This document shows, piece by piece, positions 4,019 through 16,488 of a stretch of DNA of 64,000 nucleotides; position 1 is the stretch's first letter; every line of letters starts with the position of its first letter. Origin of the DNA: Flexistipes sinusarabici DSM 4947. GTDB lineage: Bacteria; Chrysiogenota; Deferribacteres; Deferribacterales; Flexistipitaceae. The translations under genes and the position numbers were made by a program. The stretch is from NCBI RefSeq assembly GCF_000218625.1, contig NC_015672.1, positions 558,001 to 622,000 on the forward strand. Direction: 5' to 3'. A model generated the notes under the pieces. It ran no database searches. It was not told the origin of the DNA and saw only the letters and a program-made list of their open reading frames with translations.

Positions 4019-6111
4019 CCCAACTTTGCCAAAAAAATGCATAAAGTGCTGGTGTGTAAAGAAGCGGATTTAAAATTATTCACTACAGACTTTTTTATTT
4101 CGTAAAATTTTGCTTGAATACCCCAAGGCCTTATAAATTGACTTTTGGTGTTCTTCAGTCTTAGAAGTCACCCTCTGCATTATCCTTGCATTTTCCTCCG
4201 TATTCATCGAAACCGTCATCCGCATATGATTAGAAAGTTTTTTACGAACTGTACGCCAACTGTAATGTATACCCTCTGATTTCAACTTCCTCCTAAGATT
4301 ATGAACCAAATGATACGCCAAAACACTTATAAAAAGATGACCCTCCACAGCTGATTCCTTGCTGTGATATACAGGCCTTAAACCCAATTCACTCTTCAAT
4401 GTCCTGAATGTGGATTCCACATCATTAAGCATTACATATATATCCCATATCTCCTGCTCACTTAAGTCAGTGAAATTTGTCCGGATTACATAGTGGCCGT
4501 CAAGTGTACCGGAAAGTTTCTCCTCATCAACTCTCCAGCGTATATCTGCTGCATTGCCAGAATCTTCTTTTTTCACAACGTCTATATCATAATATCCCGA
4601 TACCTTGCTGCATTTACTCTTAAGTCTGCCAATACGCTCAAGAACCTTCTCATAACGCTTAACACCATTCTTCTTGAATAATGAAGACCGTATATTCTCA
4701 AGACCTTCTTCAAATCTCTGCCTAAACCTGTCTTTAATACCACCCTCTTTAATCTCCCGCATCTCACTGCTTACACATAAAAAACTCTCACCATCTACAA
4801 TATTCAATTTGCCTTTCACACTATAAGAATCATTCTTTATCCTGATATCCTCTCCGTCTGAATAATCAAGGGCTGTATCCTTCTTCCTGGAGACTGCAAT
4901 ATAATTATACCCGGAATCCTTTATATACCCTAAATTCTCCTCCGAAGCTATTCCGGCATCTATTACTACTGTAGGCTTTACCTGTAAATTAACCTGTGAT
5001 GATAAATCCGTTACTATATCAATTAACGTCTTCGTTTCTGATTGATTGCCCTCATATATCTTGCTGCATATCGGAAAACCTTCCTCATTCAACACTACTC
5101 CCAGTGTCACAAGGGGGCAATCTGAACGCTTCTGCTTTGATTTACCACGCTTAGCCTTTTTGTTATTTTTCTGGATACCTTCAAAATGTGTGTTCGTAAG
5201 ATCATAAAGCAAAATCTTATTTTCAAAGTTAAACAACTGCTGTTCATACTCAAAAAGTTTTTTCTCTATCTCTTCTGAATACTTAAAAAGCTTTTCCGAT
5301 ACACGGTAAAACTGCCTCAGCGATTTCCTGTGATAATTTATTCCAAGTAATTCAAATAAACCCGACTTCTCCTTTAACCATTCATACGTATTAAGTTCAC
5401 TGCCCGGATTAAGCATCCGACCTATTATTAAAGCCCTGGATATATCTATCTCGGATTCCGTGAAACCAAGAGATTTCAGCATATCTCCTATACCAAGCTC
5501 TTTAAATGATTCATTGCATATATACTCTCCGCCTATGCTCCGGGGCTCTGATACTTCTATACTGGATACATCCACTTGCTCGTATTCCGGCTCATGAGAA
5601 TCCTCCTCTGATTCAGGTTGCTTTGAAGACGCTGTGATCATATTCAATTTTGCTTTCTTTGCATAAGTATGGGCAAGCTCTTCCGTCTCCTCATCAGGCT
5701 TGAATACAGGTTCCTCATAACCGTCAAGCAATTGCTCTATACGGTTTGCAAGTTCTTTTAACTGCATGGGAGGAATATGAGACAGATCTCCCATGTCCAT
5801 AACAATACGTTGTCTGGGACCCTTGGGAGTACGGTATGATTACACCAGCTTATAGGCAGTATACTTTTTTCCGGTCTTTTTATTATTGGTTATGTATGAT
5901 CTTATAAACATGGACGCATTATAGCAGAAGTAGAGGCGGTGTCAATACTAAATATTATCTTAGGTCACTACAATCGTATAGCTAGCCTCTTCCTTACATA
6001 TTTACTTAACCCGTGAACGAACTATCAGTATTTTACGGAGGTTGTGTTTAATAATGATTAACCAAAATCAATAAAATAATTATTTTAGAACATCGTGTTG
6101 GCAAATTTGGG
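4019..6111 (-). mobile_element. IS1634-family insertion sequence with inverted ends
   Basis: The left end reads CCCAACTTTGCCAA and the inverted right end CCCAAATTTGCCAA; about 18 of 21 terminal bases match. CTAA flanks both sides (4015-4018 and 6112-6115), giving a 4-bp candidate target duplication (5-6 bp would be more usual for the family). The 2093-bp element holds one transposase gene on the minus strand. It sits exactly between the aldo/keto reductase remnant and the IS5-like fragment. Confidence 0.75.
4076..5800 (-). CDS. IS1634-family transposase, N terminus cut by an in-frame stop
   Basis: A 574-residue DDE transposase of the IS1634 group. Recognisable parts are YDLTNTHFEG with the first catalytic Asp region, VTLGVVLNEEGFPICSKIYEGNQ, VVIDAGIASEEN and the C-terminal VESTFRTLKSELGLRPVYH carrying the Glu. 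Continuing the frame upstream to an ATG at 5911 gives a natural N terminus, MFIRSYITNNKKTGKKYTAY, interrupted by TAA at 5842-5840 where GAA (Glu) would be expected. The full frame would have 611 codons. Translation restarting at 5800 would lose 37 residues, so activity is uncertain. Confidence 0.85.
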   Translation of the reverse strand: MDMGDLSHIPPMQLKELANRIEQLLDGYEEPVFKPDEETEELAHTYAKKAKLNMITASSKQPESEEDSHEPEYEQVDVSSIEVSEPRSIGGEYICNESFKELGIGDMLKSLGFTESEIDISRALIIGRMLNPGSELNTYEWLKEKSGLFELLGINYHRKSLRQFYRVSEKLFKYSEEIEKKLFEYEQQLFNFENKILLYDLTNTHFEGIQKNNKKAKRGKSKQKRSDCPLVTLGVVLNEEGFPICSKIYEGNQSETKTLIDIVTDLSSQVNLQVKPTVVIDAGIASEENLGYIKDSGYNYIAVSRKKDTALDYSDGEDIRIKNDSYSVKGKLNIVDGESFLCVSSEMREIKEGGIKDRFRQRFEEGLENIRSSLFKKNGVKRYEKVLERIGRLKSKCSKVSGYYDIDVVKKEDSGNAADIRWRVDEEKLSGTLDGHYVIRTNFTDLSEQEIWDIYVMLNDVESTFRTLKSELGLRPVYHSKESAVEGHLFISVLAYHLVHNLRRKLKSEGIHYSWRTVRKKLSNHMRMTVSMNTEENARIMQRVTSKTEEHQKSIYKALGYSSKILRNKKVCSE

Positions 6112-6593
6112 CTAAGGGAACGGCAATATATGCAGATAAAGGCTACAGCAGTGAATCTAACCGCAAAGACATATCAGGAACCTATGCAGATATGATAATG
6201 TATAAGGCAGCGCGGAATAAGCCACTTACAGGATTTCAGAAATTTCATAACAAGGCAGTAAGCAAGGTTCGTTATGTCGTTGAGCAGGCAATTGGATTGA
6301 TTAAGCTTCATTTTGGTTATACTCGTAGCCGATTTATAGGTATTGATAAGGTTAGGCTGGAATTGTCTATACATTGTATGGCATATAATCTGAGAAAGGG
6401 TGCTTTAAGAATGATTTGACAAGATTTAACCATACAGGTGTGTCCAAAATTACCTATTTTGGACAATTTGAGGCAATTTAAACAAACAAATACCTTTGTT
6501 TTTGCTGATAATGTTGTTTAAAAAAGTGGTAGTTAACAAATTTAGCTGCAAAATTAATGAAATTTAAAAATATTAGGATGATTCAAAAGTCTC
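6112..6593 (+). mobile_element. 3' fragment of the IS5-like element (transposase remnant inside)
   Basis: These 482 bases match the last 482 bases of the full copies ending at 17824 and 19243, without indels by eye, and end with the same GATTCAAAAGTCTC terminus. The frame through 6419 gives the last part of the transposase, including YADKGYSSESNRKD and the terminal NLRKGALRMI. The 5' two thirds are missing. The CTAA at its left border is also the duplicated target of the IS1634-family element, so the fragment was probably already truncated when that element arrived. Confidence 0.9.
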
Positions 6594-6923
6594 GCAAATG
6601 CTTCCAAGCCCCGCGAATGGGCGATGATTATCGATTTTGTGCTTGAGGAATACAGTGAGAAGCAGGTTGAATATGAATTGATGAGGAACACCGGAGCGGG
6701 CACTCTTGATGCCGCTGGTACCGGCAACAGCCGAATGGCAGCCGGCGGGGGAACAAGTGGTTCAAATACCAGTTCCGGCAGTATTACAAAGAAAAGTCAT
6801 TATTTCCCTCATGGTATGAGGCTTTCTGCCTGGGCTAATCAGATGAACATGAAAAAAGAAGAGGCCCTGCCGCTGCTCAAAAAGCGGACACGGAATGTGG
6901 TAACTAATATTCTTCCTCAATAG
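6594..6923 (+). pseudogene. Unidentified ORF remnant, 5' end removed at IS fragment
   Basis: The frame is open from the IS border to TAG at 6921-6923 and can start at ATG 6624 (99 residues), but it reads back into the IS end without its own start (ANASKPREWAMIIDFVLEE). This looks like a gene that lost its 5' part. The middle is a Gly/Ser/Thr-rich linker; the C terminus, HGMRLSAWANQMNMKKEEA, is amphipathic and basic. I do not recognise the family. A clear terminator follows, which supports this being the end of a real gene. Confidence 0.5.
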
Positions 6924-6943
6924 AGAGCACAAAACGATTTAAT

Positions 6944-6983
6944 AAAAATGCTGCATCCCGTGAACCCGGGGGCAGCATTTTTC
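6944..6983 (+). terminator. Rho-independent terminator
   Basis: AAAAATGCTGC (6944-6954) pairs with GCAGCATTTTT (6972-6982) around a G/C-rich loop, and a T-run follows. It is near symmetrical, so it could stop transcription from both the plus-strand remnant and the minus-strand stress-protein operon. Confidence 0.8.
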
Positions 6984-7097
6984 CCAATTTTTCAACTGTG
7001 TACATTTTATGTGCAACCCGGTAGCTAAAACATAATTTTTGTAAATTCATAAGGTACAGGAACTAAAAGGACAGAAACACTTCTTAGTACTCCTTTT

Positions 7098-8006
7098 TCA
7101 GGAAAACAGCTGTGTGAGTAAATCCTTATTTCCAGAATCTTTGGTAATCATGATAGGAATATAGGTATCCATTCTTCTTAAAGTTTCGGCAATATTGCCC
7201 AGAAGGGACGTTTCGTTGGATGTTTTTCCTGATGCTCCGATAATAATCAGGTCTGCCTTATTTTCATCGGCTGTTTTGTAAAGCTTCTCTGCTTCACTTG
7301 TTAATTGCTCACCTGTACCAATCTTGAGAGGATAATCCTCAGGATTTAAGCTAAATTGAGATAAAAAATCTCTGTGTTCTGTTTTCGCTTTCAACTGTAT
7401 ATAGTTTTCGCTTGTGCTTGTGGTTGCAGGAAAATAGGTGCGGCTGATATCCTGCAGATAGTAACAAATTAAGTCGCTGTTTTTATTTTTATGTAAATAG
7501 AAAGCTTTTGCAAAAGCAGCTTTTGAAACTTCGGAATAATCGATTGCACATAAAACTCTGCTGATTTGTAGTGGAGGATTCTCCGGTACAAACAGCACAT
7601 CACAATCCGATTCTGCAAATGGTTTCCTGCTGTGGAATTTTTGTCTGTATTCACCGTATTTTTGTCCGATCACCAGCATATCCACATTCATATCCTCAAC
7701 ATTTGAAACAATAATTTCCAGTCCCTCATCTTCTGCAATCTGGGTGTAAATATTTATTATCATATTTTCCCCGAGTTCCTTTTTAAGAAAATTTTCAAAT
7801 TCAATCGAGATCATTTCATCTATAGAGTTTTTTACTTCATTGAGGGAATCCTCATCTTTTTTGGGAAGATCGGAAGGTTGTATGATATGGGTAAGGGTTA
7901 TTTTTTCAACACTGAACGATTTAGCGATTACAGCGCTGTAATGGACAATATCCTCATCAATTTCGGATAAATCCAGACAAAGAAGTATGTGATTAATAAT
8001 TTTCAT
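7098..8006 (-). CDS. Tandem-domain universal stress protein
   Basis: A 302-residue protein of two UspA-like domains. Domain 1 (about 1-145) begins INHILLCLDLSE and ends VDMLVIGQKYGE ... DVLFVPE. Domain 2 (about 150-290) begins ISRVLCAIDYSE and carries ADLIIIGASGK followed by SLLGNIAETL, close to the ATP-binding GxxGxxxG(S/T) pattern. USPs bind nucleotides and modulate partners. The gene lies 11 bases downstream of the BCCT carrier on the same strand, so it probably regulates or responds with osmolyte uptake, as TeaD does for the TeaABC ectoine transporter. That link is inference. Confidence 0.88.
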   Translation of the reverse strand: MKIINHILLCLDLSEIDEDIVHYSAVIAKSFSVEKITLTHIIQPSDLPKKDEDSLNEVKNSIDEMISIEFENFLKKELGENMIINIYTQIAEDEGLEIIVSNVEDMNVDMLVIGQKYGEYRQKFHSRKPFAESDCDVLFVPENPPLQISRVLCAIDYSEVSKAAFAKAFYLHKNKNSDLICYYLQDISRTYFPATTSTSENYIQLKAKTEHRDFLSQFSLNPEDYPLKIGTGEQLTSEAEKLYKTADENKADLIIIGASGKTSNETSLLGNIAETLRRMDTYIPIMITKDSGNKDLLTQLFS

Positions 8007-8017
8007 ATAAATTTACC

Positions 8018-9649
8018 TTATTTTTCATTTTTAGATTTATTTTTGATTTTGTCGCTGCTTTCTACCAAATCCCGGATAAGCTGCAGATAATTTTCTCTCT
8101 CCTTGTTTTTCTCTTTAAGCTGTTCACTTTCATATTCTTTTGCAAGTCCCTTTTTTAAACTCCAGACCATTAAAAGGAGAATTATGGAAAAAGGAAGACC
8201 TGTTGTTATTGAGGCGGTTTGCAGGGCACCTAGCCCACCTCCGAAAAGAAGAACGGCTGCCACAACACCCTCCATAACAGCCCAGAATAAACGCTGTGTT
8301 ACCGGAGAAGTCAGTTTACCTCCTGAAGTAAAAGTGTCCACCACAAGAGAGCCGGAATCGGATGAGGTTACAAAAAAGCTAAATACCAGTAATACGGCAA
8401 AAAAATTGGCTACAGTACCCATCGGTAAATTTTTCAAAAGTTCATAAATGGAAACGGCAACATTTCCTTTTACTGCTTTAGAAATCATCCCCGCCTGGTT
8501 TGTTTCAAAAAAGATGGCTGAGCCTCCGAAAGCCGTCAGCCATAAGAATGTCAATAAAGCAGGAAAAAAAAGGACACTCAGCACAAATTCACGAAGAGTA
8601 CGTCCTCTTGAAATCCGGGCAATAAACATCCCAACAAAAGGTGACCATGAAATCCACCATGCCCAGTAAAATATTGTCCAGGAATTCTGCCAATCCGAAC
8701 GGGTGTAACCTTCGGCCCAGAAGCTTATTTTAAAGAAATCGTTAAGGTATGCACCGATATTTTGTACATAAGTCTCAAAGATAAACAGGCTGGGGCCTGC
8801 CGCAATTACAAATACAAGTAAAAGTATACCAAGGCGCATATTTATTTCGGAAAGTTTTTTTACACCGTGGTCAAGACCGGAAATGACTGAAAGGGAAGCC
8901 GCCGATGTGACCACGGCCATAAGTATGATCTGAAAGTAAATGTTAAATGGCATCCCAAACAAGTGGTGAAGACCGGAATTGATTTGCTGTACTCCAAATC
9001 CTAAAGACGTTGCAAGCCCGAAGAGTGTGGCAAGAACCGCCAGTACATCAATTGTGTCCCCAAGTTTTCCGTAAACACGTTTTCCAAGTAAGGGGTAAAA
9101 TATTGATCTTATAGCCAAAGGCATATCCTTGTTGAAAGCAAAAAATGCCAGCGACATACCCACAAGTGCATAAATAGCCCATGGATGAAATCCCCAGTGC
9201 AGAAAAGTTATAAGCATTGCCTGTCTTGCAGCTTCCGTAGTGTTTGGACTGCCTAAAACCGGTTCTGTAAAATGGTAAACTGGTTCAGCAACACTCCAAA
9301 AAAGTATACCTATGCCCATTCCTGCTGAAAAAAGCATCGCAAACCACGATGACTTGGAAAATTCCGGAACGGCAGTTTTACCGCCAAGTCGTATATTGCC
9401 ATATTTACTGAAAGCTATATAAAGCATGAAAAAAAGATAAATATTTACAGATACAATGAGAAACCAGCCTAAATTGTTTGAAATAGCAGTCTGGACTGTG
9501 GTAAAGACTTTGTCCATGGAGTCTTCAAACGTTATTGTAATAATTATAAAATTAAACAACAGTATTGCAGAAGGCCAGAATACGGGAGGATGAATGTCAA
9601 AAAATTTATGATTTTCTTTTTTTTTAGTGCCTGCAGTTTTATTGCTCAA
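8018..9649 (-). CDS. BCCT-family osmolyte transporter (betaine/choline/carnitine/ectoine type)
   Basis: An integral membrane carrier with about 12 spans. Signatures are GMGIGILFWSVAEPVYHF near the first third and the family box WAWWISWSPFVGMFIARISR followed by RTLREFVLSVL. The family imports trimethylammonium or ectoine-type solutes with Na+ or H+. The frame is open to a GTG at 9721, but that extension is hydrophobic and lacks a ribosome site; a TTG at 9649 gives a natural soluble N terminus (SNKTAGTKKKENHKFF). The start is therefore uncertain. The C terminus is a charged helix (LKEKNKERENY), often the osmosensing tail. A salt-adapted organism is implied. Confidence 0.9.
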   Translation of the reverse strand: MSNKTAGTKKKENHKFFDIHPPVFWPSAILLFNFIIITITFEDSMDKVFTTVQTAISNNLGWFLIVSVNIYLFFMLYIAFSKYGNIRLGGKTAVPEFSKSSWFAMLFSAGMGIGILFWSVAEPVYHFTEPVLGSPNTTEAARQAMLITFLHWGFHPWAIYALVGMSLAFFAFNKDMPLAIRSIFYPLLGKRVYGKLGDTIDVLAVLATLFGLATSLGFGVQQINSGLHHLFGMPFNIYFQIILMAVVTSAASLSVISGLDHGVKKLSEINMRLGILLLVFVIAAGPSLFIFETYVQNIGAYLNDFFKISFWAEGYTRSDWQNSWTIFYWAWWISWSPFVGMFIARISRGRTLREFVLSVLFFPALLTFLWLTAFGGSAIFFETNQAGMISKAVKGNVAVSIYELLKNLPMGTVANFFAVLLVFSFFVTSSDSGSLVVDTFTSGGKLTSPVTQRLFWAVMEGVVAAVLLFGGGLGALQTASITTGLPFSIILLLMVWSLKKGLAKEYESEQLKEKNKERENYLQLIRDLVESSDKIKNKSKNEK

Positions 9650-9845
9650 AATAATCAGCCCTAAAATAAATGTACATTTCAAAGTATAATATGTAAAAAT
9701 GAAAAAACAATGAAAATACACGTTGTAAGATTTTGAATAGCTGCGTTATTTTAACTGAAAACTTTTAAAAACATTTTATAGTCAAAGATTGAAATATAAT
9801 TGTGGATAGGTTAAAATTCTAAATAATTATAACAGGATAAATATT

Positions 9846-10640
9846 ATGAGTGAAAAAAAGACTTTAAATGTTAGCACGCTGTCAAAAAGTTTCGATGACG
9901 TCAGCTCATTAATGCAGGGAATTATTGATACTCCACCCGAGAAAATTAAAACGAAGGAACTGAAGCATTGTATCTCGGCATTGGAAAATTTTAAAAAATA
10001 TACAGACCTTCTGATGGATAGCTGTGCATATAAAAATAAAAGCACTATAAACAGCGGTATTGAAAAATATCTGCCGGATTTGAATAATTTGCAGTTGGAG
10101 CTTGAAGTTTACTATGGCGGTAAAAACATAAAAAATCTTTCACAGATAAAACAACTGGCTGAAAAAATTTATGACGACTATTTATTGAAAGTTAAATATG
10201 AGTTGATTCCCTATATTAACAGCAGAATGTTTTCAAGAAAACTTATCACAGGTGTTAGGATTATTGATGCACAGCATAAAGCTTTATTCACTTTTATGGA
10301 TAAATTTGTTTCAAGAGTAATCAATGAATCATCAAATGAAGATTTGGAAAAGGTACAACGGTTTCTGATTAAGTATACCCATATACATTTTAATGAAGAA
10401 GAAAAATTGATGGAAGAATCGGGATATCCGCGTAAAAGGGCTCACAAGAGCGAGCACAAAGATTTTGTTGATATGATAGAAAAAATTGATCGTTTCAAAG
10501 AAGGCGGAAATGAGAGCTCGATTGATGAAATCCTGCGGTATATATATTTTGATTTAAATCAGTGGTTTATTAATCACATTCTTAAATCCGACAGGGACTT
10601 TGTGGAATTTCATAAAAATCGTATGGGTGATGAGGATTAA
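9846..10640 (+). CDS. Bacteriohemerythrin-domain protein
   Basis: A 264-residue protein. The first about 130 residues are helical and of no recognised family. The C-terminal part (about 140-260) is a hemerythrin domain binding a di-iron centre: GVRIIDAQHKALF, HIHFNEEEKLMEE, HKSEHKDF and NHILKSDRDF supply the expected His, Glu and Asp ligands. Such proteins bind oxygen, often as sensors or scavengers in anaerobes and microaerophiles. No methyl-accepting or cyclase domain is attached. It stands alone, preceded by an AT-rich leader. Confidence 0.88.
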   Translation: MSEKKTLNVSTLSKSFDDVSSLMQGIIDTPPEKIKTKELKHCISALENFKKYTDLLMDSCAYKNKSTINSGIEKYLPDLNNLQLELEVYYGGKNIKNLSQIKQLAEKIYDDYLLKVKYELIPYINSRMFSRKLITGVRIIDAQHKALFTFMDKFVSRVINESSNEDLEKVQRFLIKYTHIHFNEEEKLMEESGYPRKRAHKSEHKDFVDMIEKIDRFKEGGNESSIDEILRYIYFDLNQWFINHILKSDRDFVEFHKNRMGDED

Positions 10641-10938
10641 TTAAAAAAAGCTTTAGTTTAGAGCTTACAATAATTAAATCAAGCTTCACACTTCCACTGT
10701 TTTCACGTCTTTGTTTACCCTGTTAAATATCAGCTTCGCTGATTGCCTGTGGCTAGTACCAGTCTTTTAGACTGGTAAGTATGTTTAACATTCTATATGT
10801 TCGCTAAAAGCGAATGCTAGACAAAACGGAGTGCGGAACTTGAAATTAAACTTTAAATCTTAAGCATATCTAATAACCTCTAAATATTCCACTTTGCATT
10901 TTTGGAAAATATTTTTATTTTTGCACAATAAATGGAAC
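10641..10938. other. Intergenic region with REP-like hairpins and repeat copy B
   Basis: No gene seen. 10729-10745 holds a short palindrome (ATCAGC TTC GCTGAT) that recurs near 44620. 10752-10842 is the inverted copy of the 3340-3421 repeat and contains ACCAGTCTTTTAGACTGGT, a palindrome that recurs in variant form at about 16461-16480 next to an IS. The remainder is AT-rich. Confidence 0.6.
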
Positions 10939-10967
10939 TTGATTAAAAATGTTATAAATTGTACAAT
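10939..10967 (+). promoter_or_regulatory. Candidate sigma-70 promoter of the hydrogenase/c-di-GMP operon
   Basis: TTGATT (10939-10944) and TACAAT (10962-10967) are separated by 17 bases, in an AT-rich stretch 49 bases before the large-subunit start. No sigma-54 (GG-N10-GC) element was seen here. Confidence 0.5.
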
Positions 10968-11015
10968 TTCCTTATTGTTTGAGTCATATTTTGTTTTGCC
11001 AAAAGGTAAGATTTT

Positions 11016-12452
11016 ATGTCAAAAAATTTGAAAATAGATCCTCTCACCCGCATTGAGGGGCATCTGAAAATCAGTGTGGAAGAGGAAGCCGGTACAGTCA
11101 TAGATGCGAAAGTTCATGGCGAAATGTACCGCGGTTTTGAAAAAATTCTCCATGGCAGGCACCCCTTTGACGCTGCGAGGATTACCCAGAGGGTATGCGG
11201 TATATGCCACGAAGTGCACGGGGTTGCTTCGGTAAAAGCTATTGAAAACTTGTACAATGTGGGTGTACCGTTTAACGGTCTGATTCTCAGAGATTTGATT
11301 CTCGGTCTGCACGTTATTACCGATCATATCATTCATTTTTATAATCTGTGTTTGCCTGACTATGTTGATTTTAATGTTATCAGTGAATATTCGGGCTCGG
11401 ACAGAAATCTCCTTAAAATAAAAGAGCTGATAACCCGTCCTTCCAATCCGTTCTTGAAAAGAAAAGAGAATGCAAAATTTATACAGGATAGGGATTTGTG
11501 TATCAGAATGGTTCGTAATTATTTTAAAGCCATTGATGTGAGGTCTAAAGCCGCTTCCGGGCTTGCAATACTCGGAGCAAAAACACCTTTTTGCCAGGCG
11601 TTGCTGCCGGGCGGTATCACAACCGATGTTACACTGGATTCTTTGTATAAATATCATAAGGTATTAGAAGAAACCGCTGATTTTGTGATTCAGGATTATT
11701 ACGGTGATGTGCAGATATTGTGCGAATATTTTCCGGAATATTTTAATATCGGCTCAACTTACGATCGTTTTTTCGGTTATGAATCACTGTCAATGAATGG
11801 TGAGCCGCTTTTTAAAGAGGGTGTTTTACATGGCAGCAAGCTGTATCCTCTGGATTATAGCAAAATAAGTGAAAGACTCGTCTCCTCATATTATGATGAT
11901 GAAGGAAAACCGCATTATGGTAAAAACAATGCTTATTCGTGGATAAAGGCGCCGAGATATGACGGGCTTCCTATGGAGACCGGCCCTATCGCAAGGCTGT
12001 TGATAAACCACAATAAAACAATCTCGGCCGAAACTGCAAAATATTATAAAGGTGATATTCTTTCTTCAACAATGTCCAGATTGCTGGCAAGAGTTGTGGA
12101 ATGTAAAATAATTTTGAGGTATTTGTTTGATCTGGTTTCAAAATACAGACCCGGTGATGATAATATCATAACTGTGGATCCTAACCAAAAAATTACAGGT
12201 TCAGCTTTTGCAACCTCAATAGCTGCCAGAGGGGATCTGATGCATAAAATTTCAACGGTGGATGGCAGGATTGATGAGTATAATATGGTAATGCCCTCCA
12301 CATGGAATTTCGGGCCTTCTACGGGGAATTTGAAAGGTATTGTGGAAAAAGCACTTATCGGTGTAAAATCTTCCGATGAAGCCTCAATAAAGTTGCATAC
12401 GGAAAGGATTGTTAGGAGTTTTGATCCGTGTACGGCATGCTCAATACATTAG
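11016..12452 (+). CDS. NiFe hydrogenase large subunit without C-terminal extension
   Basis: A 478-residue catalytic subunit. The N terminus KIDPLTRIEGHL and the L1 motif RVCGICHEVH (about residues 63-72) supply two Ni ligands; the L2 motif DPCTACSIH supplies the other two. The family oxidises or produces H2 at a NiFe(CN)2CO site. The GEMYRGFEKILHGRHP region resembles group 1 enzymes. Oddly, the protein stops directly after the L2 histidine, at TAG 12450-12452, so there is no peptide for a HyaD/HybD-type protease to remove. That is known for regulatory (HoxC/HupV) subunits. It precedes the small subunit, the reverse of the usual order. No hyp maturation genes are in the window. Confidence 0.95.
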   Translation: MSKNLKIDPLTRIEGHLKISVEEEAGTVIDAKVHGEMYRGFEKILHGRHPFDAARITQRVCGICHEVHGVASVKAIENLYNVGVPFNGLILRDLILGLHVITDHIIHFYNLCLPDYVDFNVISEYSGSDRNLLKIKELITRPSNPFLKRKENAKFIQDRDLCIRMVRNYFKAIDVRSKAASGLAILGAKTPFCQALLPGGITTDVTLDSLYKYHKVLEETADFVIQDYYGDVQILCEYFPEYFNIGSTYDRFFGYESLSMNGEPLFKEGVLHGSKLYPLDYSKISERLVSSYYDDEGKPHYGKNNAYSWIKAPRYDGLPMETGPIARLLINHNKTISAETAKYYKGDILSSTMSRLLARVVECKIILRYLFDLVSKYRPGDDNIITVDPNQKITGSAFATSIAARGDLMHKISTVDGRIDEYNMVMPSTWNFGPSTGNLKGIVEKALIGVKSSDEASIKLHTERIVRSFDPCTACSIH

Positions 12453-12459
12453 GTGGCTT

Positions 12460-13425
12460 ATGTTAACAAGAAGGCAGCTGCTGAAACACAGTGCAAAACT
12501 TTCCATGCTATTGTTCGGCAGTAAAGCTTTTGCAGCTGATATTTTTGACGGCTTTATCAGGCTTAAAGAGGAAAGAGTAAAAGTCATTTTTATTCAGGGG
12601 CAGGTTTGTGCCGGTTGTTCAATTTCCATGATGTATGGCAATGAAACGAACTTTCTGCAGTTTATCAGGCATATTATTTCTCTTCAGGTGCATCCCATGC
12701 TTTCCTTTGAAAGTTCGGATGATTACCTCGAAATGCTTGAAAAAACTGTAAAAAACGGTGACTATATTCTTGTCTTTGAAGGAAGCATTCCAATGGGTAT
12801 TCCCTATGCATGCAATATAGGGGGGATACCTTTAAAAAAATTTATAAAACCTGCGGTTAAGAATGCTTCTATAATTGTGGCTTCCGGCACATGCTCTTCA
12901 CACGGCGGTATACCTGCAGCTGTGAATAATGAAACCGGAGCCGTATCCCTTATAGAATACCTTGATATGCAGAATATTCACAAACCGTATTTACGTATTC
13001 CCGGTTGTCCCGTACACCCTGACTGGCTTATGGGCAGTATCTCCTATGTTGCATCCACCGGGGAAATTCCAAAAGTAACGGAACTGAAAACGCCGAAAAC
13101 ATATTATAAAGACACTATTCATAACCATTGCAATAGGTTTCAGCATTTCAGCCAGGACTTATACTTATCTGATTATGCACAGGATAAAACCAACTGTCTC
13201 CTTAAAAAAGGCTGCCGGGGCCCTGTCACATATTCAGACTGCCCGATTCGAAACTGGAACGGCAATACGAATTTTTGTATTAAAAGTAATGCCCCCTGTG
13301 TGGGATGTGTTCACCCGGACTGGCCGTTTGAGAGTGATATGTATATTACTGCTGAAAAGGCGGAGGATATCACCTGGTGGGAAATGCAGGAAAAAGTGAG
13401 GAACAGGGAAAAAGATAAAAAATGA
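12460..13425 (+). CDS. NiFe hydrogenase small subunit, Tat-exported
   Basis: I chose ATG 12460, preceded by AGGTGG. This gives 321 residues beginning with a twin-arginine signal (LTRRQLLKHSAK, then a hydrophobic run to FAADIF), so the enzyme is predicted to be periplasmic. Proximal cluster ligands are in QVCAGC, GTCSSHG and PGCPVHPDW. Distal and medial ligands are in HNHCNRF, NCLLKKGC, SDCPIRNW, NFC and PCVGC. All three iron-sulfur clusters therefore look intact. The C terminus (WWEMQEKVRNREKDKK) is soluble, with no membrane anchor, and no cytochrome b gene follows. The electron acceptor is then likely a soluble or neighbouring haem protein. It overlaps the next gene by 4 bases. Confidence 0.95.
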   Translation: MLTRRQLLKHSAKLSMLLFGSKAFAADIFDGFIRLKEERVKVIFIQGQVCAGCSISMMYGNETNFLQFIRHIISLQVHPMLSFESSDDYLEMLEKTVKNGDYILVFEGSIPMGIPYACNIGGIPLKKFIKPAVKNASIIVASGTCSSHGGIPAAVNNETGAVSLIEYLDMQNIHKPYLRIPGCPVHPDWLMGSISYVASTGEIPKVTELKTPKTYYKDTIHNHCNRFQHFSQDLYLSDYAQDKTNCLLKKGCRGPVTYSDCPIRNWNGNTNFCIKSNAPCVGCVHPDWPFESDMYITAEKAEDITWWEMQEKVRNREKDKK

Positions 13426-16088
13426 TGAAGCGGATAAAAAAATTTTTCAGACAACTTTCCGTTGATTTGCATTTTCTTGTACCTGTGACATTAATAGTCT
13501 TTTTCTTGTGTCTCATTATAATCATTGCCAAGGACAAGATGGTAAGTGATGTGGAAAGCTCTTTCAACCGTTATATGGGTTATCTGAAAGATACGGTTTT
13601 TTTATCAACTTATGATTCCCTGAAAAAGGGAAATATGAAAGTTTTTGAAGACATATTGACACAAATAGGTACATATGAGCAGGTGAAGGAATTTTCGCTT
13701 ATAAATAAAAACGGCAAAGTTGTGTACTCCACAAACAAGAAATTTTTGAAAACCAAAGATCCTAAAGCGGCAGAAATCAGCAAACCTTTGACGGAAGCCG
13801 GACGTGATAAAATTACTTATTATTTTCCTGTAGTTACAGTGGATTACTGTACCCGGTGTCACAGGCAGTGGGAAAGCGGTGAAATAAACTCGGTGTACAG
13901 GATTTCGTTAAATAATTCTTCTTTTGTCAATTTGGTGAATATTTCAAGTTTTTCCAATAAAGCTATTTTTATCGGCGGATTCATTGCCGTTCTTCTTATT
14001 TATATTCTTTATTCATATATTAAGCAGCTGAGATTCAGTGAAATTATTTCCGAAAGTGAAAAGAAATACAGGTCATTGTTTGAAAATATTATGGATGTTC
14101 AGTTCTGTATCAATGAAAAAGGTGAACTTATTCTTATAAGTCCTTCCGGTGTTGGTTTACTTAACTACAGAGATAAAAATGAAATTCTTTATAAGAACTT
14201 TTCTTCTAAACTTCTGTATGACGAACAAGCTTATCAGGATTTGGTAAAAAAAGTTTATTCCGAAAAGGAAGTTTACGGCTATGAGATGATTCTTAAGAAA
14301 AAGAATGGAGAACCGTTAATTGCCGAGGCCAATATGCGTCTTGTGGAAAAGGGCGGAGAAAAGATTATAGAAGGTATTTTCAGAGATATCACTGAGCGTA
14401 AAAACAATGAGAAACAGCTTCAGCTTCTTGCGAGTGTATTTGAAAATACCATAGAATCAATTATGATTGTCAGTTCTGACGGAAAAATTCAAAAAATTAA
14501 CCAAGCTTTTCTTGATTCCACGGGTTATTCCGAAGAAGAGATTGTGGATTTCTCACCTTTGGAAATTCAACCGTTTAATGAAAACAGAAGATATCTGTTA
14601 AAAGTGGCGGCTGAAGTGAGAAAAAATGACAGATGGAAAGGAGAGATATGGTGCCGTAAAAAAACCGGTGAAATCTTCCCCCAATGGATGTCGGTGAGTG
14701 TATTGAAAGATGATAGCGGCAATGTGATGAATTATATTCTACTTCTGCATGATATAACTTCCCTGAAAAAAAGTGAAGAAGAACTGAGGCATCAGGCGAC
14801 CCACGATATGCTCACAGGTCTTCCCAACAGACAGCTGTTTGAAGACAGATTAAAAAGGGCGGTTGCTCATCATGAAAGATACGGCGGCAAGTTTGCACTT
14901 CTTTTCATAGATCTGGATAACTTTAAAAATATTAACGACACACTGGGACATAAAATCGGTGATCTTTTACTTGTAAAGGCGGGTGAAACCCTGCTGGAAT
15001 GCTGCAGAGAATCGGATACCGTAGCCAGGCTGGGTGGTGATGAGTTTACCATTATTTTGAATGATATCGAAGATGAAAACGGCATTGTTGCTGTTACAGA
15101 AAAGATATTAAAGGCCGTTGCTTCTGCAAAAAAAGTCGGGGGACATGAGGTGTATACAAGTGCAAGTATCGGAATAGCCGTTTACCCTGCAGACGGCAGG
15201 AATTCTGTATCCTTAATAAAAAATGCGGACATGGCTATGTACAAAGCAAAAGAGCTGGGAGCCAATGATTATTATTTTTACAACAGCGATCTTAAAGTCA
15301 GGCTGGAAAGAAAGATTTCTCTTACTACAAAACTGGCCAAGGCTCTGGAAGAAAATGATATAAAAGTGTATTTCCAGCCACTGATCGATTTGAAAAGTGG
15401 AAAGATAACAGGTGCCGAAGCTCTGGCAAGGTGGCAGACGGATACATCCCGTTTTATACGCCCGGATGAATTTATAGAAGCGGCTGAAGAAAGCGGACTG
15501 ATAGGTACTCTGGGAGATCATGTGCTGAATAAAAGTTGTGAGAATTTGAGAAAATGGCACGATGCAGGTTTTGAAAATTTGACAATGTCGGTAAACCTGT
15601 CGGTGAAACAGATGAACGATCAGAATCTTGTGACAAAAACCAAGAATGCCTTGAAAAAATATTCGCTGAAACCAACTGATCTTGTTTATGAGATTACGGA
15701 AAATGTGGCAATGAAGGATTTTGATGCTACGCTTGCTCTTTTTAAAGAATTGAGCGGACTTGGTGTAAAAATATCTATGGATGATTTCGGTACCGGCTAT
15801 TCCTCTCTTGCCTATCTGAAACAATTTCCATTGAATTCTATAAAGATAGACAAGGTATTTTTGCAGAATATTCCTGAAAATGAAAAGGATAATAACCTTA
15901 TAAAGGGTATAGTTTGGATGGCTAAAAGTTTGGGATTGAATGTTGTTGCAGAAGGAGTGGAAAATAAATTCCAATCCGAGTTCCTGCGGGAAATCGGATG
16001 CAACGGGTGCCAGGGGTATTATTACAGCCGGCCTCTACCGGAAGATGAGTTTTTTGACTATTTAAAGGCCGTAAGGCGTGACGAGTGA
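13422..16088 (+). CDS. Membrane GGDEF-EAL c-di-GMP enzyme with periplasmic CxxCH haem sensor
   Basis: An 888-residue protein. TM1 is at about 17-37 and TM2 at about 180-201, enclosing a periplasmic domain of about 140 residues that carries CTRCH (143-147), a c-type haem site, just after YYFPVVTVDY. Two PAS domains follow (about 215-330 and 335-455). The GGDEF domain has an intact LGGDEF (about 536) and an RESD inhibitory site five residues upstream. The EAL domain has AEALAR (about 663), DDFGTGYSS, EGVE and QGYYYSRPL. Both synthesis and hydrolysis of c-di-GMP look possible. The ATGA overlap with the hydrogenase small subunit shows translational coupling, so haem reduction by the hydrogenase may be the input (inference). 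Confidence 0.93.
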   Translation: MMKRIKKFFRQLSVDLHFLVPVTLIVFFLCLIIIIAKDKMVSDVESSFNRYMGYLKDTVFLSTYDSLKKGNMKVFEDILTQIGTYEQVKEFSLINKNGKVVYSTNKKFLKTKDPKAAEISKPLTEAGRDKITYYFPVVTVDYCTRCHRQWESGEINSVYRISLNNSSFVNLVNISSFSNKAIFIGGFIAVLLIYILYSYIKQLRFSEIISESEKKYRSLFENIMDVQFCINEKGELILISPSGVGLLNYRDKNEILYKNFSSKLLYDEQAYQDLVKKVYSEKEVYGYEMILKKKNGEPLIAEANMRLVEKGGEKIIEGIFRDITERKNNEKQLQLLASVFENTIESIMIVSSDGKIQKINQAFLDSTGYSEEEIVDFSPLEIQPFNENRRYLLKVAAEVRKNDRWKGEIWCRKKTGEIFPQWMSVSVLKDDSGNVMNYILLLHDITSLKKSEEELRHQATHDMLTGLPNRQLFEDRLKRAVAHHERYGGKFALLFIDLDNFKNINDTLGHKIGDLLLVKAGETLLECCRESDTVARLGGDEFTIILNDIEDENGIVAVTEKILKAVASAKKVGGHEVYTSASIGIAVYPADGRNSVSLIKNADMAMYKAKELGANDYYFYNSDLKVRLERKISLTTKLAKALEENDIKVYFQPLIDLKSGKITGAEALARWQTDTSRFIRPDEFIEAAEESGLIGTLGDHVLNKSCENLRKWHDAGFENLTMSVNLSVKQMNDQNLVTKTKNALKKYSLKPTDLVYEITENVAMKDFDATLALFKELSGLGVKISMDDFGTGYSSLAYLKQFPLNSIKIDKVFLQNIPENEKDNNLIKGIVWMAKSLGLNVVAEGVENKFQSEFLREIGCNGCQGYYYSRPLPEDEFFDYLKAVRRDE

Positions 16089-16488
16089 GGTAGATAGATG
16101 GTGAAGTGGGGAAGTAGGTAGAGGTAAAGGAAAAGACGTGAACGTGAGCGTGAGCGTGAGAGCAAGTTGAACTGGTTGATGGGGCCTGCCCCGTGAAATG
16201 TGAAAGCCTATTTCACCGGGGTTGAAATGATATAATAAACATATATACGGGTATACTTGTTCAGATATCTGGCGCCCTTCCATTTTTTTAATAGCTATGC
16301 CAATAAGGGGATTTTCACTCATATTCGAGATCGAAACTCGTAACTACTGTTAGTAACCGCCTATACCCTATTCTCATAATTTCTTTCATTAGCAAATATT
16401 TACTCAGTTACAACTTTTATCCACAGGGTATGATCGGTAACTAACAGTACGTTCCTCTAGCACCAGCCCTTTAGGCTGGTAAATATGT
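16089..16488. other. Intergenic region with low-complexity runs and a long inverted repeat
   Basis: No credible gene. 16140-16162 is a short GTGAGC tandem repeat. 16347-16369 and 16425-16447 are imperfect inverted copies (about 19 of 23 bases) that could form a hairpin with a 55-base loop. 16459-16488 is a variant of the CTAG-ACCAG palindrome block seen at 10752-10785, cut by the IS5-like element starting at 16489. Confidence 0.6.

Follow-up and report, generated by a model that had tools for sequence, protein, structure and literature searches.

The closed genome of Flexistipes sinusarabici DSM 4947 comprises 2,526,590 bases, and the window analysed here, a stretch of 64,000 nucleotides (NC_015672.1, positions 558,001 to 622,000 of the forward strand), contains an operon of three genes for a [NiFe] hydrogenase and a haem-binding membrane receptor, which together probably constitute a periplasmic H2 sensor. 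All three genes lie on the + strand, in the numbering of the window. The first (11016..12452) encodes a large subunit of 478 residues that matches PF00374 (E=5e-94; 316 bits against a cut-off of 25.8) and retains the nickel ligands in CGIC (61-64) and DPCTACSIH (from 470), the latter running directly into the stop codon. The second (12460..13425), whose start was set at the ATG at 12460 rather than at the upstream TTG of the mechanical open reading frame, encodes a small subunit of 321 residues matching PF14720 (E=6e-27) and PF01058 (E=3.5e-21), and the third (13422..16088) encodes a receptor of 888 residues. Only 7 bases separate the large- and small-subunit genes, while the small-subunit stop and the receptor start share 4 bases (ATGA). 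The operon is followed by ~430 gene-free bases and then a transposase; no cytochrome b gene was found on its 3' side, and the triad itself holds no cytochrome or protease gene. A preliminary description of this DNA had read the locus as large-subunit, small-subunit, and GGDEF-EAL receptor genes, with a 4-base overlap at the receptor, a small subunit exported by twin-arginine translocation (Tat) without an anchor, a haem c motif on the periplasmic side, and no cytochrome b gene next in line, all of which the coordinates, the Pfam matches, and the features described below bear out.

The receptor is built from a transmembrane helix, a periplasmic Cache domain, a second transmembrane helix, two PAS domains (14067..14759), a GGDEF domain (14796..15266), and an EAL domain (15330..16034). 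Pfam recognizes the four cytoplasmic domains, in which the GGDEF (residue 538), RxxD I-site (529), EAL (666), and DDFG (787) motifs are all present, and gives a weak match to the N-terminal Cache domain. The sequence YCTRCH stands between hydrophobic segments at residues ~18-40 and ~180-202, and its CTRCH (residues 143-147; 13848..13862), a haem c attachment motif, predicts that the Cache domain carries covalent haem c. In an AlphaFold model made with 35 homologues (predicted local distance difference test, pLDDT, 90.9), a long first helix leads into a Cache core and a second transmembrane helix, with CxxCH on a short helix (141-146) ahead of the last strand (155-164). Foldseek returned WalK-type Cache domains and, lower in the ranking, the Geobacter haem sensors 3b47 and 3b42; a haem-sensor structure was found by this fold search only, and neither by a single-sequence PDB search nor by a profile search (E<=1) with the sensor. 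Nine residues, G70, M72, F75, E90, L93, G98, C143, C146, and H147, are invariant in 35 receptors. The domain belongs to the haem-Cache family, the subject of a 2026 preprint (PMC12889525), and it shares with the haem-c Cache sensors (sCache_heme/DUF3365), such as GSU0582, GSU0935, and Tll0287, a Cache fold with CxxCH between two transmembrane helices; a hydrogenase partner is not described for these sensors, and the preprint makes no mention of hydrogenases. For the two Geobacter haem-Cache domains, potentials of -156 and -251 mV are reported, and their His/Met ligation depends on redox state: in GSU0935 the haem is held by His144 and, when reduced, by Met60 (PMC8396549). Because of this precedent, the invariant Met72 (codon 13635..13637) is a candidate distal haem ligand. 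Judging from standard potentials, haems of this kind should be reducible by H2 at the concentrations found in nature.

The small subunit begins with MLTRRQLL, a Tat-type twin arginine, and has no C-terminal hydrophobic segment or membrane anchor; the large subunit has none either. The ligands for three Fe-S clusters are retained, with 12 positions conserved in 39 small subunits and one Cys replaced by Asp or Glu in 3. Given that [3Fe-4S] enzymes carry Pro at the fourth medial position, where a Cys (residue 273) is found here, the medial cluster is likely, by sequence, to be [4Fe-4S]. For the hydrogenase, the best-scoring models are of group 1 type and the nearest solved structures by sequence are Desulfovibrio-type [NiFeSe] hydrogenases, although the large subunit scores below the curated NCBIfam cut-offs (NF033181, NF045518; 430 versus 600). 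All complete sensor-linked large subunits terminate exactly at DPCxxCxxH, without a C-terminal extension, whereas conventional large subunits of the same genomes are ~15 residues longer. Among the controls, E. coli HyaB and HybC and C. necator HoxG have the extension and the regulatory HoxC lacks it. The extension is reported to be missing from the H2-sensing groups 2b and 2d, as well as from 4c, 4e, and 4g, a list on which group 1 does not appear (PMC7294309). The F. sinusarabici genome also encodes two conventional hydrogenases (loci L099 and L100), both with the extension and both beside protease-like and membrane-protein genes. A further Tat-type [NiFe] hydrogenase without a C-terminal extension, with small-large order and a Cys-rich small-subunit tail, occurs at 6532-10134 of locus L160 and also in L161; in L160 it is followed after 9 bases by the gene for a membrane HD-GYP-like protein, and the gene at this place differs in L161.

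The three-gene arrangement recurs widely. When the small subunit alone was searched against 60 relatives, so that receptors played no part in the selection, 17 top-tier matches were obtained in 13 genomes (E<=6e-106; the next tier begins at E>=3e-49), with identities from 93% in the congener to 46-50% in one other family. All 17 loci, which like the named relatives belong to Deferribacterota, have the order large-small-receptor, the receptor having a CxxCH periplasmic domain and following the small subunit directly in 16 of them (L044 is interrupted by 1.6 kb). Between these two genes the spacing usually falls within -4 to +16 nt, and nine loci have exactly -4. In the opposite direction, the sensor domain only was searched (E<=1e-10) against 395 genomes from the phylum to which a Desulfuromonas metagenome-assembled genome (MAG) belongs, and large- and small-subunit genes lie directly upstream of 11 of the 12 matches; the lone exception (L086) is a short sensor whose genome also holds a triad. 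Hydrogenase searches added the triads L134-L136, L159, and L162-L165, and diverse Desulfobacterota loci share the order. Since it recurs in every close relative, the arrangement is far beyond chance, and the neighbours outside the triad vary between lineages, so the linkage is no by-product of long conserved synteny. Conserved linkage, whose absence from relatives would have spoken against the preliminary reading, is present in the close relatives and in further genomes alike. The sensor alignment as query against genome contigs gave 16 loci, the last of which (L062) is a chance match; the small subunit alone gave no match there, and none was found in the phyla of two unrelated genomes, one of these phyla being a single genome. 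The distribution as known covers Deferribacterota, Desulfobacterota, and the family of genomes G048-G050. In L165 the genes directly after a divergent triad (4893-8932 and onward) are a HypF-like one and further apparent hyp genes, suggesting that the sensor can travel with maturation genes.

A tree of large subunits (56 rows, HoxC left out, 200 bootstrap trees) separates 32 receptor-linked from 22 conventional enzymes by one branch in 200/200 bootstrap trees; being unrooted, it allows either side to be the clade. Within it, the GGDEF-linked enzymes group together (96/94), as do the kinase-linked ones (100/100). An earlier tree that included HoxC, its sole group 2 row and a long branch, had placed sensor-linked enzymes in more than one group, which is attributable to that long branch and to the labelling of G048-G050 as 'other' before they were found to be receptor-linked.

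While the receptors share the periplasmic domain, their cytoplasmic output is variable. The commonest is that of methyl-accepting chemotaxis proteins (MCPs), found in the majority of the Deferribacterota relatives (a CZB-like tail is present in some of these) and of the Desulfobacterota; HisKA-HATPase outputs occur in Desulfuromonas-type MAGs, and PAS-PAS-GGDEF-EAL outputs in F. sinusarabici, its congener, and Denitrovibrio MAGs. The operon had been proposed as one for cyclic di-GMP (c-di-GMP) signalling, which fits the GGDEF-EAL output here but is too narrow for the system as a whole. The output matches flagellation: flagellins number 0 in this genome and its congener (G000 and G001, GGDEF-EAL) and in G060 and G061 (kinase), against 3-6 in six MCP-type genomes, and MCP genes number 1 in this genome (G000) but 18, 33, and 35 in three genomes of the MCP type. 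Dedicated sensing would be expected to show just this pattern, a constant input combined with an output adapted to whatever means of response the host has. Two variants of the MCP type may be added. The triad MCP receptors of G048-G050 (L134, 9301-11145; L135, 9128-10954; L136, 6550-8397) have two CxxCH motifs and are possibly a di-haem version of the sensor, and L156 (15696-17555) is a haem-Cache MCP that is related to the triad receptors (40% to L096) and is encoded close to a conventional hydrogenase cluster, a triad also being present in its genome.

The exchange of outputs, the missing extension, and the match between output and flagellation argue together for sensing rather than energy metabolism, and the sensing interpretation of the preliminary description is thus supported. 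With the observed gene order, linkage, domains, cofactor ligands, and one-branch split of the tree, they make it probable that the three genes form a periplasmic H2 sensor that signals through the haem of the receptor. Assembly of the hydrogenase heterodimer in the cytoplasm would involve no C-terminal proteolysis; the signal of the small subunit would then direct the folded enzyme through Tat into the periplasm, where it would either remain soluble or bind the receptor. There it would oxidize H2, the electrons travelling by way of the proximal, medial, and distal Fe-S clusters to the Cache domain and its haem c. Once this haem is reduced, its ligation would probably change, with His147 and Met72 taking part, and the Cache domain would shift; this shift, relayed through the second transmembrane helix, would set the balance of the PAS-GGDEF-EAL portion and hence c-di-GMP. 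It is from the architecture that we infer the wiring from H2 through haem to c-di-GMP, that is, the formation of a complex, the electron transfer, the response to H2, and the direction in which c-di-GMP would change. In relatives, the same input would be plugged into MCP or histidine kinase outputs. We also favour, with somewhat less assurance, the broader view that Tat-exported, extension-less [NiFe] enzymes reducing haem-c Cache receptors with exchangeable outputs make up a widespread, hitherto undescribed class of extracytoplasmic H2 receptors, serving H2 taxis where the host is flagellated and H2-controlled c-di-GMP or kinase signalling where it is not.

Several observations weigh against this interpretation. 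The distances of the three proteins are correlated (r=0.92-0.96, 34 loci), as common descent alone would lead one to expect of linked genes, and the flagellin comparison covers ten genomes, of which the kinase-type ones are MAGs. The GGDEF-EAL receptor of L054 (9860-12538) adjoins a pyruvate-kinase-like gene and no hydrogenase, although its relative L061, from another MAG, has a hydrogenase at that place; it seems that the hydrogenase genes of L054 have been lost or that its receptor borrows the MCP-linked enzyme of L041, which the same MAG carries. The L061 receptor (9860-12544) for its part has an in-frame stop between GGDEF (638 residues) and EAL (243 residues), through a nonsense mutation, a MAG error, or a real split, the L054 relative being full length. 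Moreover, a broad haem-Cache profile has matches in 86 of the 98 genomes from one class, most of them receptors with no hydrogenase match alongside, for which reason the notion that a haem-Cache domain alone means a hydrogenase was rejected, and this genome has two more haem-Cache receptor genes that are not beside a hydrogenase. Such unlinked receptors, together with the tight binding and slow release of nitric oxide (NO) by a signalling haem-Cache protein of P. azotoformans (PMC12889525) and the binding of carbon monoxide and NO by GSU0582/0935 (PMC8396549), would suit a receptor haem that senses NO, another diatomic gas, or ambient redox, with a hydrogenase that keeps the haem ferrous, hence NO-binding, or is only co-regulated. 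This is unlikely, as it leaves unexplained both the constant link of hydrogenase and receptor across three output types and the missing large-subunit extension, while the invariant Met72 is no less compatible with a six-coordinate haem switched by redox state.

The complete electron path in the small subunits, and the fact that periplasmic uptake hydrogenases are the closest enzymes of solved structure, could be taken to mean that the hydrogenase is metabolic, feeding electrons from H2 into a periplasmic cytochrome pool, and that the receptor monitors its turnover as a form of energy sensing. We regard this as improbable to much the same degree, given that the triad brings no cytochrome or protease gene, that its large subunits lack the extension, and that two conventional hydrogenases, each with its own partners, are encoded elsewhere in the genome; the reading as an ordinary uptake hydrogenase was rejected for want of an extension, anchor, protease, or cytochrome. 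Sensors of the regulatory hydrogenase (RH) type form a complex by which the kinase receives the signal, and the tight coupling of the triad would also be compatible with a docked hydrogenase that acts by binding, an H2-dependent change moving the Cache domain around a structural haem. The invariance of CxxCH and Met72 and the retention of all distal Fe-S ligands make this very improbable.

Among known systems, HoxBC/HupUV with HoxJ/HupT (group 2b) resemble the triad in their H2-sensing role, which is proposed here by inference, and in an extension-less large subunit. They differ in the small-large gene order and the cytoplasmic kinase partner, as opposed to large-small order and a membrane haem-Cache GGDEF-EAL receptor; HoxB, which starts MNAPVCTG, lacks the Tat signal seen here in MLTRRQLL, and HoxC is 29% identical to the large subunit. 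To our knowledge, group 2 enzymes have no export signal, in contrast to the small subunit described here. Membership of group 2b was rejected on account of the Tat export signal and the haem-Cache GGDEF-EAL partner, and on the best reading the hydrogenase is group-1-like; it does not belong to HydDB group 2b, and probably not to 2c either, the latter compared by description only. HydDB lists [NiFe] 2c as 'Diguanylate cyclase-linked (putative)' and [FeFe] C2 as 'Chemotactic (putative)', linked to MCPs (PMC5037454). The former shares with the triad the link to c-di-GMP, in a role that is putative in both, and the latter shares the MCP link of MCP-type triads but belongs to a class of enzymes with no relation to it. 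Conventional group 1 [NiFe]/[NiFeSe] enzymes of the periplasm (NF033181, NF045518; E. coli Hyd-1/2) include the closest solved structures, of Desulfovibrio type, and likewise have a Tat-exported small subunit, whereas the triad enzyme falls below their cut-offs, has no extension, anchor, or cytochrome partner, and stands on the other side of the tree. A neighbourhood survey of 2025 tabulates clusters of MCP (87 genes) and EAL-GGDEF (50 genes) type close to [NiFe] large subunits, and a term search of its text gave no discussion of them (PMC12727194). In the open-access literature, no paper was found on a periplasmic hydrogenase that signals to a haem receptor. The preliminary description is to be corrected in that HydDB had already entered, as putative, a diguanylate cyclase-linked [NiFe] group as well as MCP-linked [FeFe] hydrogenases.

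Anaerobic communities use H2 as a main currency, and a bacterium that seeks it out or settles near it has to be able to detect it; the pairing of a hydrogenase with a haem receptor in many distantly related bacteria suggests a little-noticed route for doing so. The [NiFe] H2 sensors characterized so far that we know of, HoxBC and HupUV, are cytoplasmic and act via histidine kinases. If the proposal is correct, a periplasmic enzyme that signals by reducing a receptor haem would represent a different sensing principle, turning a gas into a c-di-GMP signal and providing a candidate receptor for bacterial H2 chemotaxis. H2 taxis has been reported for a methanogen, as cited in PMC4266047. For annotation, a group-1-like large subunit ending in DPCxxCxxH is probably a sensor and not an uptake enzyme when genes for a small subunit and a CxxCH receptor come next.

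A 26-base palindromic repeat, ACCAGYCYWTTARRCTGGTAARTATG, flanks the operon at 10758-10783 and 16462-16487, the only two copies in the window (0 in 100 shuffles), and is perhaps a repetitive extragenic palindromic (REP)-like element or the trace of a mobile unit. Directly after the operon, identical transposase-like genes of 376 residues stand in tandem (16520-17650 and 17939-19069), and other transposase-like genes of the window lie at 4076-5800 and 19539-20858. Just upstream, on the same strand, a gene at 9846-10640 encodes a hemerythrin-domain protein that is not conserved beside the triads of relatives.

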